In this document: piece by piece, positions 32,347-37,346 of the stretch | How the letters are laid out: each line of letters opens with the position of its first letter | Position numbering within the stretch: position 1 is the first letter of the stretch | Assembly: GCF_016793485.1 (NCBI RefSeq) | Contig: NZ_JAEULZ010000001.1 | Location: 434,001 to 498,000 of the forward strand | DNA length: 64,000 bases | Direction: 5' to 3' | Source of the DNA: Mesorhizobium sp. | GTDB lineage: Bacteria > Pseudomonadota > Alphaproteobacteria > Rhizobiales > Rhizobiaceae | Notes under the pieces: generated by a model | Told to the model about the DNA's origin: nothing | The model's input: the letters and a program-made list of their open reading frames with translations, nothing else | Database searches by the model: none | Translations under genes and position numbers: made by a program

Positions 32347-33675
32347 ATGCGGCTTTCGCGCTATTTCCTGCCCATACTCAAAGAGAACCCGCGCGAAGCC
32401 GAGATCGTCTCTCATCGCCTGATGCTCAGGGCCGGCATGATCCGCCAGCAGGGGCAGGGCTCGTTCAGCATGCTGCCGCTCGGCAAGCGCGTGCTCGACA
32501 AGGTCTGCCAGATCATCCGCGAAGAGCAAAACCGCGCCGGAGCGCTGGAAATCCTGATGCCGACGATCCAGTCGGCCGAGCTCTGGCGCGAGAGCGGTCG
32601 CTACGACGACTATGGCAAGGAGATGCTGCGCATCAAGGACCGCCAGGAGCGCGACATGCTCTACGGTCCGACCAACGAGGAGATGGTGACGGACATCTTC
32701 CGCACCTACGTCAAGTCGTACAAGGACCTGCCGCTCAACCTCTACCATATCCAGTGGAAGTTCCGCGACGAGGTGCGTCCCCGTTTCGGCGTCATGCGCG
32801 GCCGCGAGTTCCTGATGAAGGACGCCTACTCCTTCGACCTCGACTACGAGGGCGCGAAGGCGGCCTACAACCGCATGTTCGTTTCCTACCTGCGCACCTT
32901 CACGCGCATGGGCCTGCAGGCGATCCCCATGCGCGCCGACACCGGCCCCATCGGCGGCGACCTCAGCCACGAATTCATCATCCTCGCCGACACCGGCGAG
33001 AGCCAGGTGTATTGCCACAAGGACTTTCTCGAATTGGCGGTGCCCGGCGAGAATACGGACTTCGCCAACGACGCCGAGATCGGCGGCATCGTGAAGGATT
33101 GGACGACACCTTACGCTGCAACGGACGAGATGCACGACGAGGCTGCCTGGGACAAGATTCCCGCCGCCGACCGCCTCTCGGCGCGCGGCATCGAGGTCGG
33201 CCATATTTTCCACTTCGGCGAAAAATATTCGAAGCCGATGAACGCGGCGGTGCAGGGGCCGGACGGAAAGCAGCATTTTGTCTCGATGGGGTCGTACGGC
33301 ATTGGGCCGACGCGGCTCATCGCGGCGATCATCGAGGCCAGCCACGACGATGCCGGCATCATCTGGCCGGAATCGGTCGCGCCGTTCGATGTCGTGATCA
33401 TCAACATGAAGGTCGGCGATGCCGAATGCGATCGCCTGTGCGAGCAGCTCTACGCCGCCCATCAGGCTGCCGGACTGGATGTGCTCTATGACGACACTGA
33501 CCAGCGCGCCGGTGGCAAGTTCGCCACCGCCGACCTGATCGGCATACCGTGGCAGGTCATTGTCGGTCCGCGCGGCGCGGCTGCCGGCGAGGTCGAGGTG
33601 AAGCGCCGCGCGACCGGAGAGCGCGACACCAAGACGGTCGAAACCCTCCTGGCTTCGCTCGGGCCCAAGAGGTGA
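32347..33675 (+). CDS. proS: Prolyl-tRNA synthetase, short bacterial type
   Basis: The 442-aa class II enzyme begins [20 protein letters not shown]. Motif 1 lies near residues 45-75, motif 2 is [32 protein letters not shown] (about 133-164), and motif 3 is [16 protein letters not shown] (about 314-329). The large editing insertion between motifs 2 and 3 is absent, as is usual for alphaproteobacterial ProS. It charges tRNA-Pro in the cytosol. The ATG at 32347 matches the family; an in-frame extension to 32161 crosses the intergenic region and is rejected. lolC and lolD follow without a gap. Confidence 0.95.
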
Positions 33676-33680
33676 GCACG

Positions 33681-34967
33681 GTGACTTCCGCCGTGGCCGT
33701 GAAGCCTGCCGGGGCAGGGCCGTTCTCGGTCTTCGAGCGCATGGTCGCGTGGCGCTACCTGCGCTCGCGCCGCAAGGAGACGGTGATCTCCGTCATCGCG
33801 TCCATCTCCTTCCTTGGCATCATGCTCGGCGTCGCCACGCTGATCGTGGTCATGGCCGTGATGAATGGTTTCCGCGCCGAGCTTCTGACCCGCATTCTCG
33901 GCATCAACGGCCATCTCGTGGTCCAGCCGCTCGATACGCCGCTCGAGGATTATGATGCGGTGGCACAGCGCATCAACGGCGTCGCCGGCGTCAAGTTCGC
34001 GATTCCGCTGATCGACGGGCAGGTGCTGGCTTCAGGCGCAGTCGGTGCAGGCACCGGGGCGCTGGTGCGCGGCATCAGCGGCGAGAACCTGGGCAAGCTC
34101 ACGATCGTTTCCAAGAACATCAAGCACGGCTCGCTCGCCGGCTTCGACCAGTCAGAGGGCGTCGCGCTCGGCCAGCGCATGGCGAACAATCTCGGCCTCG
34201 TGCTCGGCGATTCCATCACGCTCGTCTCGCCCGACGGCGATGTGACGCCGATGGGAACGACGCCGCGCGTAAAATCCTATCCGATCGTCGCCATCTTCGA
34301 GGTCGGCATGTCGGAGTTCGACTCCTCGGTCATCTTCATGCCCTTCGAGGAAGCGCAGCTCTATTTCAACATGGAGGGGCGGGCGCAGACGATCGAGGTG
34401 TTCGTCGAAAATCCTGATAATGTCGACCAGCTTCGCGAACTGGTCGAGATCGCCGCTGCGCGGCAGGTCTACATCACCGACTGGCGGCAGCGGAACGAGA
34501 CGTTCTTCTCCGCGCTGCAGGTCGAGCGCAATGTCATGTTCATGATCCTGACGCTGATCGTGCTTGTCGCTGCGTTGAACATCATTTCCGGCCTCATCAT
34601 GCTGGTAAAGGACAAGGGGCGCGACATCGCGATCCTGCGCACCATGGGCGCGACGCGCGGCGCGATCATGCGCATCTTCCTGATGACGGGCGCGGCGATC
34701 GGCGTCACCGGCACCATCGCAGGAGTCATTCTCGGTGTCGTGCTCTGCCTCAATGTCGAGCGCATCCGCCAGTTCTTCTCATGGCTTTCGGGCACGGTCC
34801 TGTTCAACCCGGAGCTTTACTTCCTCAGCCAGTTGCCGGCAAAGATGGAGTTCGGCGAGACCATGTCCGTCATTCTGATGGCGCTGGTCCTGTCCTTCTT
34901 CGCGACGCTGTTCCCGGCCTGGCGCGCCGCCAAGCTCGATCCGGTCGAAGCGCTGAGGTACGAGTGA
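33681..34967 (+). CDS. lolC: Lipoprotein-releasing system permease LolC/LolE
   Basis: About 428 aa. One helix near the N-terminus ([30 protein letters not shown]) precedes a large periplasmic domain (about 65-280), followed by three C-terminal helices of the FtsX fold and the closing [18 protein letters not shown]. With LolD it lifts lipoproteins from the inner membrane. The GTG at 33681 is chosen because AAGAGG lies eight bases upstream; GTG at 33672, overlapping the proS stop, is the alternative. Only one LolC/E-type protein is encoded here, consistent with homodimeric LolF-like transporters in this group. Confidence 0.92.
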
Positions 34968-35644
34968 GCGCGCCGGTCATCGAACTCAAGGGCGTCGAGC
35001 GCCACTATGTTCAGGGGCAGCGCAAGCTGACTATCCTGAACGGCGCCGATTTCGCGCTCGTGCCGGGCGAAATGGTGGCGCTGGTGGCGCCGTCCGGGGC
35101 AGGCAAGTCGACGCTGCTTCATACCGCGGGCCTGCTCGAACGGCCCGACGCCGGCGATGTCATCCTCGGCGGTCGCGCCTGCGGCAGGCTGTCCGACGAC
35201 GATCGCACTGCAATCCGCCGCAACGACATCGGCTTCGTCTACCAGTTCCATCACCTGCTGCCCGAGTTCTCGGCGCTTGAGAACATCATGATGCCGCAGA
35301 TCATCAAGGGGCTGCCGCGTGCCGAGGCTGCCAAGCGCGCCGAGCAGCTTCTCGACTACATGCAGATCGGCAAGCGCGCCCACCATCGGCCGGCCGAGCT
35401 CTCCGGCGGCGAGCAGCAGCGCGTTGCAATCGCCCGCGCCGTCGCCAATGCGCCTCTGATCCTGCTGGCCGACGAGCCGACCGGCAACCTCGATCCCCAC
35501 ACGGCGTCTTACGTGTTCGACGCGCTTGCAGCGTTGGTGAAGCAGTCGGGACTGGCTGCACTGATCGCCACCCACAATCACGAGCTTGCCGCGCGCATGG
35601 ATCGCCGAGTCACCCTCTCCGAGGGCAAGGTCGTTTCCTTCTGA
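34964..35644 (+). CDS. lolD: Lipoprotein-releasing system ATP-binding protein LolD
   Basis: The 226-aa ABC ATPase. Walker A is APSGAGKST (about 44-52), the Q-loop is [12 protein letters not shown], the signature [14 protein letters not shown] (about 145-158), and Walker [14 protein letters not shown] (about 164-176). It powers LolC. The GTG start overlaps the lolC stop (GTGA). In many Rhizobiales lolD is followed by dnaE; here it is followed by a LexA-type operator and a micro-ORF instead. Confidence 0.95.
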
Positions 35645-35686
35645 CCATTAACGGTTTTTCCGCCTTCGCAACCCTCCCTTAACCTT

Positions 35687-35703
35687 CTGACAGGGCATGT
35701 CAG
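35687..35703 (+). terminator. Weak hairpin after lolD
   Basis: CTGACA (35687-35692) and TGTCAG (35698-35703) pair around a 5-base loop, 43 bases past the lolD stop. There is no T-run, so it may be only a weak terminator or pausing site. It abuts the 18-base palindrome at 35704. Confidence 0.3.
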
Positions 35704-35750
35704 GAACGCGGTACCGCGTTCTTGACACCTTGAACAAAAATAGAACAAAA
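35704..35750 (+). promoter_or_regulatory. LexA-type (SOS) promoter-operator
   Basis: GAAC-N7-GAAC at 35732-35746 is an exact match to the alphaproteobacterial LexA box. It overlaps the spacer and -10 region of a promoter with TTGACA at 35722-35727 and CAAAAT at 35746-35751. Just upstream, 35704-35721 is a perfect 18-base palindrome (GAACGCGGTACCGCGTTC) that could bind another dimeric regulator. LexA bound here would block transcription of the small gene at 35780 until DNA damage. The box is seen directly; regulation is inferred. Confidence 0.75.
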
Positions 35751-35779
35751 TAAAAACACATCAAAAACAGGAGCGAAAC

Positions 35780-35866
35780 ATGGCCGATCTGTTCCACGAC
35801 GTTCTCTCTCTGGTCTGCATGAGCACATTCCTCGTCGCATCGGCGATGTGGATCGGCGCGCTCTGA
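35780..35866 (+). CDS. 28-aa single-helix membrane micro-protein under a LexA box
   Basis: An ATG follows CAGGAGCGAAAC (GGAG seven bases upstream) and encodes 28 residues beginning MADLFHDVLSLVCMSTFLVA and ending in AMWIGAL. Residues about 8-28 form one hydrophobic helix. The gene sits 30 bases downstream of a LexA-type promoter. The closest functional parallel is Caulobacter SidA, a 29-aa SOS-induced inner-membrane division inhibitor; size, topology and control agree, but no sequence homology is claimed. A hairpin at 35915-35939 may end the transcript. Confidence 0.65.
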   Translation: MADLFHDVLSLVCMSTFLVASAMWIGAL

Positions 35867-35914
35867 GTTTATCGCGCCGGTCTCCAATCACTTCTCTCGT
35901 CGATGCCGGCGTTA

Positions 35915-35939
35915 AGCCTTTCTTCTTGTCGGAAAGGCT
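35915..35939 (+). terminator. Hairpin between the micro-ORF and the M50 peptidase gene
   Basis: AGCCTTTC (35915-35922) pairs with GAAAGGCT (35932-35939). No T-run follows. It may terminate the micro-ORF transcript, or mask the GGAAAGG ribosome site of the GTG at 35943. Confidence 0.4.
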
Positions 35940-35942
35940 AGG

Positions 35943-37346
35943 GTGGCCGGAAATCGAGTGAGGTACGCCTGTCCGGTCTCGTCCCCGGCCAGGCGGTCCG
36001 TCGGAGTGATGCCCTTGTCGCCTGCGCTTGCACTTTTGCTCGTAGCGCTCAATCTCGGGCTGATCTTCGTCCTTTTTGCGCTGCCGCTCGGCACGCGCAC
36101 TGTCAAAGCCACGCGTGTAGTTTCTGCAGGCAGGGACCGCCTCTGGAGTGCACTGTTTCCCTTTGGCGAGAACGCCGGCTGGTCCGGACAGCGCCTTGCT
36201 GTTGAAGCGCTTGGCGAACCCGGTCTGGCGCGTATGCGGCTTGGCTGGGAAGGTCGCGACGGCAAGCCGATCGAACATCTCGTCCGGCTGGAGGATGTCG
36301 TTCCCGGCCAGCGGTTTTCGATGCGGGTCATAGACGACAGCTCGCTGCATCCGACATTCTGGAAAGACTATCGAGACTCCGTGGAACTGGCCGGCGACGA
36401 CGATTCGATCCGCGTCACGCTATCGCGGACCGACCGCTACCGCGGCGCGGCCTTTCTCATCTTCCGCTACTTCGCGATGCGACGCGAACTGGCCAAATTC
36501 AAACGATGGGCCGAGACGGGCGAATACAGTTCCGGCGGCATCTTCGAGCATCCTGCGACCCAGATCGGCTTTGCCGCCTTGTCGGTCCTGATCATGTGGC
36601 CGGTGTTCGGGCTTACCTTCGGCGGTTTCCTTCTCGCCACCGTGCTGACCGCCGTCGTGGCGCTGCACGAGCTTGGTCACATGGCCGCCTTCCGCGTCAT
36701 GGGGCACCGCAAGGTGCGCATGATCTTCCTGCCGCTGCTCGGCGGCATCGCCATAGGCGGCAGGCCATATGACAGCCGCTTCGAGGTCGCCTTCGTAGCG
36801 CTCATGGGGGCGGGGTTCTCGGCGTTCCTCGTCCCGCTGGCCATCGCAGCCTGCGTTTATGCCCTGGGCGAGGGCTGGTTGGTCACGGCGACCATCCTCG
36901 CCATGCTTGCCGGCATCGGGGCGCTTTTCAACATCGCCAACCTGGTGCCCGTCTGGAAATTCGACGGGGGACAGGTGCTGCGCCAGATCTGCCCGGGGCC
37001 GGTCTCGCTTGCGCTGGCCTCTTTCCTGCTTCTCCTTGCGCTGCTGGGGATAGGCCGCGAGGCGGGCCTTCCGGATTCGCTGCTCATGGTGTCGGGCGCG
37101 GTCTTCGCAATCCTCAGCCTCATCACCGCGGGAACGGGTGTAAAGCCACGCCACGAACTGAAGCCGCTCGGTGGCATGGAGCGCGGGGCGCTGGCCTGTG
37201 CGCTGGTTGCCGTATTCGTCATCCACGCGTCAGGCGTTCTCTGGGCCTCGGCGCGGCTCGCAGACTGGCAGCAATTCGAACGACACCACCGCGCTCCCGC
37301 CGGTCAGCTCGCCGCCGTTTCGTACCGGCCGTCTCCGACACCGTAG
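35943..37346 (+). CDS. Membrane M50 (site-2-protease-type) metallopeptidase with N-terminal START-like domain
   Basis: Up to 467 aa. After a first helix (PALALLLVALNLGLIFVLFALPLG), residues about 55-185 resemble an SRPBCC/polyketide-cyclase-type domain, with VVSAGRDRLWSALFPFGENAGWSG and a regular beta pattern. The rest is a multi-helix membrane protein with the zinc motif HELGH (residues 242-246) and a distal NLVPVWKFDGGQ (about 332-343), the HExxH and LDG-type sites of intramembrane proteases. A soluble lipid-binding-type domain fused to an intramembrane protease is unusual; its substrate is unknown. Start uncertain: GTG at 35943 has GGAAAGG upstream, ATG at 36009 would remove 22 residues. 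The stop touches the ggt stop, tail to tail. Confidence 0.75.
   Translation: MAGNRVRYACPVSSPARRSVGVMPLSPALALLLVALNLGLIFVLFALPLGTRTVKATRVVSAGRDRLWSALFPFGENAGWSGQRLAVEALGEPGLARMRLGWEGRDGKPIEHLVRLEDVVPGQRFSMRVIDDSSLHPTFWKDYRDSVELAGDDDSIRVTLSRTDRYRGAAFLIFRYFAMRRELAKFKRWAETGEYSSGGIFEHPATQIGFAALSVLIMWPVFGLTFGGFLLATVLTAVVALHELGHMAAFRVMGHRKVRMIFLPLLGGIAIGGRPYDSRFEVAFVALMGAGFSAFLVPLAIAACVYALGEGWLVTATILAMLAGIGALFNIANLVPVWKFDGGQVLRQICPGPVSLALASFLLLLALLGIGREAGLPDSLLMVSGAVFAILSLITAGTGVKPRHELKPLGGMERGALACALVAVFVIHASGVLWASARLADWQQFERHHRAPAGQLAAVSYRPSPTP

Follow-up and report, generated by a model that had tools for sequence, protein, structure and literature searches.

The window, a 64-kb stretch of DNA (G000:C49:434001-498000) from what is probably a Mesorhizobium-like member of Rhizobiaceae, contains a 28-codon micro-gene with a ribosome-binding site and a predicted LexA box lying within a sigma-70-type promoter (Table 1). 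The initial annotation had described an exact GAAC-N7-GAAC box overlapping a promoter, a good ribosome site and a product with one transmembrane helix, similar in design to Caulobacter SidA. Box and promoter were recovered where it had placed them, and AGGAG was found ahead of the ORF. The promoter was the sole site identified when positions 35600-36050 were scanned, and the distance from box to ORF was 48 nt. The encoded micro-protein, MADLFHDVLSLVCMSTFLVASAMWIGAL, is 28 aa long, with D7-x9-F17, A22 and W24 as its marked residues and WIGAL as its C-terminus. The maximum 19-residue Kyte-Doolittle mean was 1.94, which is consistent with a single transmembrane helix. The micro-protein family had no match at E ≤ 1 in Pfam, NCBIfam or PHROGs, with three members scanned per database.

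The two genes upstream are those that we take to be lolD and a lolC/E-type gene. The listed lolD ORF starts too far upstream, and the protein probably begins further in. Downstream, an M50-peptidase-like gene occupies the place held by dnaE in many other lineages examined. An 8-bp inverted repeat, AGCCTTTC/GAAAGGCT, was seen by eye at 35915-35939, 3′ of the micro-gene, and has no T-run; a scan of the locus found no terminator downstream of the micro-gene.

Table 1. The micro-gene, its upstream signals and its neighbours, in window coordinates
Feature	Position	Strand	Remarks
lolC/E-type permease (presumed), part of the conserved neighbourhood	33549..34967	+	Pfam MacB_PCD and FtsX
lolD (presumed; ABC transporter ATPase), upstream neighbour	34781..35644	+	Pfam ABC_tran; frequent 5′ neighbour of the micro-gene
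Sigma-70-type promoter: TTGACA (at 35722), 18 nt, CAAAAT (ending at 35751)	35722..35751	+	Scan: 10/12 matches; mean 0.1 in shuffles
LexA box GAACAAAAATAGAAC, GAAC-N7-GAAC, between −35 and −10	35732..35746	+	Exact match; predicted site
Ribosome-binding site AGGAG	35769..35773	+	Read from sequence
28-codon ORF, ATG 35780 to TGA 35866, proposed SidA orthologue	35780..35866	+	Predicted single-helix membrane micro-protein
M50-peptidase-like gene, directly downstream of the micro-gene	35943..37346	+	Pfam Peptidase_M50

Comparison of the window ORF with seven relatives gave pN/pS values of 0.07-0.34. Across 47 ORFs, mean pS was 0.58 and mean pN 0.16 in frame, a pattern absent from the other two frames. 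The amino-acid sequence of the micro-ORF is under purifying selection, and an ORF without coding function was ruled out by pN/pS and the frame control. A first profile of 12 rows matched 212 of 297 genomes of the family at E ≤ 0.1 (115 of these at E < 1e-7), a tally that must include chance matches, since E is given per genome. The motif [DE]-x9-F was present in 76 of 77 distinct box-bearing proteins; these were collected by profile, so that the count characterises the family and does not test it independently. A conserved helix face (D, S/A, S/C, F, S/T and W at 0, 3, 6, 10, 13 and 17) was considered and rejected, as the periodicity was not significant (p 0.15).

Counts of the LexA box were unremarkable by themselves. 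The window held two exact boxes against 2.17 expected, the second (40756) inside a long open frame, and the 5.2-Mb genome held 163 against 94 for the reversed pattern. The box alone is thus not significant in the window, and it is taken to be real because it is conserved in relatives, which rules out a chance box. The identical 15-bp box was found at −48, together with an ORF at 82-89% identity, in all three other genomes of the genus searched (G001-G003). With a later profile (A5), 112 of the 212 fetched loci scanned scored above 30. Of these, 104 had an exact box no more than 110 nt upstream of the ORF, to be compared with a background of about 0.003 boxes per 125 nt; some rows of this profile had been chosen beside boxes, so that the count is not fully independent. 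An earlier profile, with rows chosen without regard to boxes, gave a box in 23 of 28 fetched order-search loci. The 104 box-bearing loci include redundancy: they reduce to 88 different stretches of DNA and 77 different proteins. More than one box is present in 40 of the 104. In these loci, which had been chosen for having a box, 144 boxes fell in the 125-nt stretch that precedes the ORF, whereas the rest of the same strand, 436 kb, had only 10 (the source of the background figure). The sequence TTG[AC]C occurred within 14 nt upstream of the 5′-most box in 61 of the 88 distinct box-bearing relatives.

Eight of the 112 loci had no exact box within 110 nt (L038, L041, L044, L046, L105, L113, L114 and L119). 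An exact box lay at −118 in L041, and L046, L113 and L119 carried one-mismatch boxes; L105 had neither an exact nor a one-mismatch box, and the ORF of L114 was the same as that of L113. A DNA pattern from the end of the ORF retrieved 25 named records, 24 of them from Hyphomicrobiales (Mesorhizobium, Aminobacter, Aquamicrobium, Zhengella and unclassified relatives), and the box was present in all 24. The 25th record, labelled Akkermansia, was dismissed as a chance match to the pattern. Conservation of box and ORF together, to which the initial annotation had looked, was borne out by the 104 of 112 loci and by the conservation of the ORF as a protein.

The same genome encodes a full LexA (TIGR00498 match above cut-off), with an exact box about 46 nt upstream of its own gene. 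Twelve further boxes in nine loci, chosen for AT-rich spacers, were inspected; neighbouring genes were scanned as N-terminal fragments, and some scores were therefore below full-length cut-offs. One box lay 49 nt before imuA, with dinB, recognised by eye, divergent there. Another was 100 nt before ssb, with a box on the other side 153 nt before uvrA. GAAC-N7-GAAC boxes hence occur near imuA, uvrA, ssb and lexA alike. The fetched recA locus contained no exact box, only a degenerate site identified by reading. At one further locus (L357, G000:C32:25500-28500) an exact AT-rich box immediately preceded a radical-SAM gene for DNA repair (the fragment matched TIGR03916), possibly an SOS gene of this genome. 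The remaining boxes of the 12 adjoin no recognised DNA-damage gene.

In many Hyphomicrobiales the micro-gene was found between lolD and dnaE, and among loci of the window's family the adjacency of lolC and lolD was the commonest link. The region downstream of lolD was inspected directly in 30 genomes of the family that matched the profile weakly or not at all, each from a different genus. dnaE lay within 1.5 kb of lolD in 20 of these, and an exact box and a family-like micro-ORF were present in all 20, including one (L218) in which the micro-ORF had first been missed by the hydropathy filter. In the other 10, the 700 nt scanned contained no exact box; in G066, which is among these 10, the micro-ORF occurs further on, beside dnaE and without an exact box (L114). 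Weak matches in other families of the order (f13, f22, f27, f28, f29, f41, f43 and f50; E 5e-6 to 0.008) were mostly short ORFs, and 17 of the 18 were fetched. The micro-gene was beside dnaE in 15 of the 17, and an exact box was found in 14, all with dnaE downstream and 12 with lolD upstream.

A search of the class with a 36-row profile gave matches in 62 of 385 genomes at E ≤ 0.3. Among 29 newly fetched loci, a box was present in 14 (four of them from family f56), with dnaE downstream in the same 14; the other 15 had neither. A sample selected on dnaE only comprised 88 regions from the better-matching of 196 matching genomes, with the window's own genome included and two f56 genomes already examined omitted. 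An exact box lay within 750 nt on the dnaE strand in 11 of the 88 regions, accompanied by a hydrophobic micro-ORF in all except L299, that is in 10. As controls, an opposite-strand box was found in 8 regions, and two reversed patterns in 0 and 3. The proportion of 11 in 88 indicates that the micro-gene, though widespread, is patchy outside Hyphomicrobiales and the holdfast-bearing families.

Three observations on individual loci may be added. In several relatives, as here, the gene after the micro-gene is M50-peptidase-like; this may date the rearrangement of dnaE, which in this genome lies at C49:652433, about 182 kb from the micro-gene; no dnaE match was obtained within the window. At L037, L058, L062 and L095 the micro-gene occurs with its box or boxes, and the stretch fetched gave no match to lolD or dnaE; micro-gene and promoter may travel as an independent unit. 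The micro-ORF also has second copies, at L044 (G011:C37) and L038 (G019:C27), which lack a LexA box and adjoin neither lolD nor dnaE. The neighbours of L044 (DUF5131 and a helix-turn-helix match below cut-off) may be phage-like, two neighbours of L038 match no Pfam family, and mobile elements may carry SidA-like genes. A viral origin was rejected, as a phage tblastn with one second-copy protein and one viral pattern found nothing; another viral pattern returned 14 contigs, none with sequence of the micro-protein family.

The relationship to SidA was approached through the holdfast-bearing families. HfaA, a holdfast gene family, was matched only in Caulobacter vibrioides among 14 control genomes, and scored above cut-off in families f55, f56, f172 and f188. 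Family f56 is probably Caulobacteraceae, an assignment to be read with the HfaA matches of f55, f172 and f188 in mind. In the best 30 dnaE loci of f56, an exact box followed by a hydrophobic micro-ORF preceded dnaE in 20, and no box was found within 700 nt in the other 10. These 20 micro-ORFs start with ATG (18) or GTG (2), and many are MW-x-KDAAAG-like. Box and micro-ORF also preceded dnaE in f55 (L305, L323) and f172 (L288), so the link to SidA does not depend on the choice of f56. In f188 (L274) such a micro-ORF was found before dnaE, without an exact box.

In C. crescentus, SidA, an inner-membrane protein of 29 aa, is controlled by LexA and inhibits division by way of FtsW, with suppressors in ftsW and ftsI (PMC4211646), and models that are not of high confidence put it on FtsW TM7 (PMC13396833). 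The dnaE gene of this species is CC1926 (PMC1839093) and sidA is CCNA_02004 (PMC10769358). With recN being CC1983 and CCNA_02062 in the published numbering, an offset of 79, sidA would be about one or two genes from dnaE. Presumably it is CC1927. The f56 ORFs were accordingly taken as SidA by position, and the comparison that follows was made with them and not with authentic C. crescentus SidA.

Alignment of the rhizobial and order profiles to the f56 profile with hhalign gave E values of 1.7e-4 and 2.1e-4, with a probability of only 45-49%, for what are very short hydrophobic proteins. D aligned on D and F on F, [DE]-x9-F being common to both sides, and the C-terminal halves differed. The 16 aligned f56 ORFs were 31-34 aa long, against the published 29 aa for SidA; a corrected sidA start codon has been mentioned (PMC4117421). 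The gene, the selection on its coding sequence, the box with its conservation and the lolD/dnaE locus in relatives can all be read from the sequences compared. Agreement in locus, promoter, size, helix and motif makes orthology the best reading. From the lolD, micro-gene and dnaE order in relatives, and from the motif common with the f56 ORF, the micro-gene is probably a SidA orthologue, not a new protein of like design. The interpretation of the initial annotation is supported, and its comparison with SidA (LexA box, 28 aa and helix) has become stronger than it had proposed, through the lolD/dnaE locus and motif in relatives.

The locus is likely to be orthologous to Caulobacter sidA and to encode, in rhizobia, an SOS-induced membrane micro-protein that inhibits the late divisome. 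In an undamaged cell, to judge from the position of the box within the promoter, LexA bound to GAAC-N7-GAAC would block RNA polymerase. On DNA damage, activated RecA would bring about self-cleavage of LexA, and the 28-aa protein would be made and would be expected to enter the inner membrane as one helix. There it would bind the late divisome (FtsW/FtsI/FtsN), and septal wall synthesis would be held inactive until repair was done. By orthology, the window protein should act as SidA does; every step of this scheme, from the binding of LexA and the response to damage to insertion in the membrane, the target in the divisome and the arrest of division, is inferred.

Other roles for the ORF have to be weighed against division arrest. 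It could be a regulatory uORF or leader peptide of its neighbour, dnaE in many relatives, with LexA regulating dnaE. Among the possible uORFs mentioned for S. meliloti is sORF25, which is translated and lies in the 5′-UTR of dnaE1 (PMC10117765), and dnaE is listed as SOS-regulated in C. crescentus (PMC3323433); the arrangement described above suggests that dnaE was credited there with the LexA box of the micro-gene. The present genome separates the two genes, however. The 760 nt before the relocated dnaE contain no exact box and no hydrophobic micro-ORF, and micro-gene and box remain beside lolD though dnaE is elsewhere. With dnaE some 182 kb away and without either element, the box belongs to the micro-gene, and its having stayed with the micro-ORF speaks against the role mentioned for sORF25, that of a leader peptide of dnaE. 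Purifying selection on the amino acids and [DE]-x9-F in all but one of the 77 distinct box-bearing proteins also speak against a leader function, which we regard as quite improbable.

The gene order on the other side raises the question of whether the micro-protein, under LexA control, modulates some other membrane machine such as LolCDE. The lol genes precede the micro-gene, and lolC-lolD adjacency is the commonest link among the family loci. At L221-L226, L239 and L246, nevertheless, the micro-gene adjoins dnaE and the stretch fetched has no lolD, and neither gene matched at the four isolated loci noted above (L037, L058, L062 and L095). The micro-gene is therefore not strictly tied to the lol genes, and a role of this kind is highly improbable. 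An SOS-induced membrane toxin would act by depolarisation and dormancy, not by inhibition of the divisome. TisB, of 29 aa and under SOS control, and DinQ, an SOS-regulated toxic single-transmembrane peptide with antisense RNAs, are alike in size and design to the micro-protein. They are type I toxins with antisense RNA, which may set them apart from it, and the micro-gene has its locus and motif in common with the sidA neighbourhood; a toxin of this type seems unlikely.

Division arrest by a SidA orthologue can also be set beside known systems. The micro-gene resembles sidA (CCNA_02004) in predicted LexA control, a product of about 29 aa with one membrane helix, a dnaE-adjacent locus in its relatives and the [DE]-x9-F of the positional f56 ORF. 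It differs in that the window protein has 28 aa and ends in WIGAL, and in that dnaE has moved away in this genome. DidA of Caulobacter is likewise a small transmembrane inhibitor, acting on FtsW/I/N, but is induced by DriD and not by LexA (PMC4211646), whereas the window micro-gene has a conserved LexA box. YneA, SosA and ChiZ are damage-induced membrane division inhibitors modelled at FtsW TM7; they have LysM domains or an extended helix (PMC13396833), for which 28 aa leave no room. SulA, in contrast, is a soluble FtsZ inhibitor, and the window protein is a 28-aa hydrophobic helix without Pfam, NCBIfam or PHROGs match. The S. meliloti sORF25 occupies the position that micro-ORFs hold at this locus in related genera, and belongs to a Ribo-seq set of translated sORFs (PMC10117765). 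Its position suggests that it is the orthologue of the micro-gene; in the sections of that publication concerned with it, the authors consider it a possible uORF and do not link it to LexA or SidA.

Somewhat less firmly than orthology at this locus, though still on balance, we favour a wider reading in which SidA is not peculiar to Caulobacter but an SOS checkpoint on division that is ancestral in much of the class Alphaproteobacteria. Its gene would be an unannotated one of about 28-40 codons in the gap between lolD and dnaE. The LexA sites credited to dnaE in this class would then be the promoter of this gene, and relocation of dnaE in the present genome would have left gene and box behind. 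The literature titles and abstract openings surveyed contained no description of SidA homologues in rhizobia, nor of a rhizobial division stop after DNA damage; the alphaproteobacterial case described in them is Caulobacter. The kind of protein is itself known, and the surprise would lie in the distribution of the SidA lineage over much of the Alphaproteobacteria, hidden by annotation. If this is true, the conserved SidA-like gene, which no family model covers, would provide an SOS checkpoint that can be tested directly in rhizobia, and the LexA site credited to dnaE would be reassigned. Likewise, a function could be proposed for the S. meliloti sORF, which is translated and has hitherto been mentioned as a possible uORF, and the 77 distinct natural variants would serve directly as a mutational map of a minimal inhibitor of the divisome.
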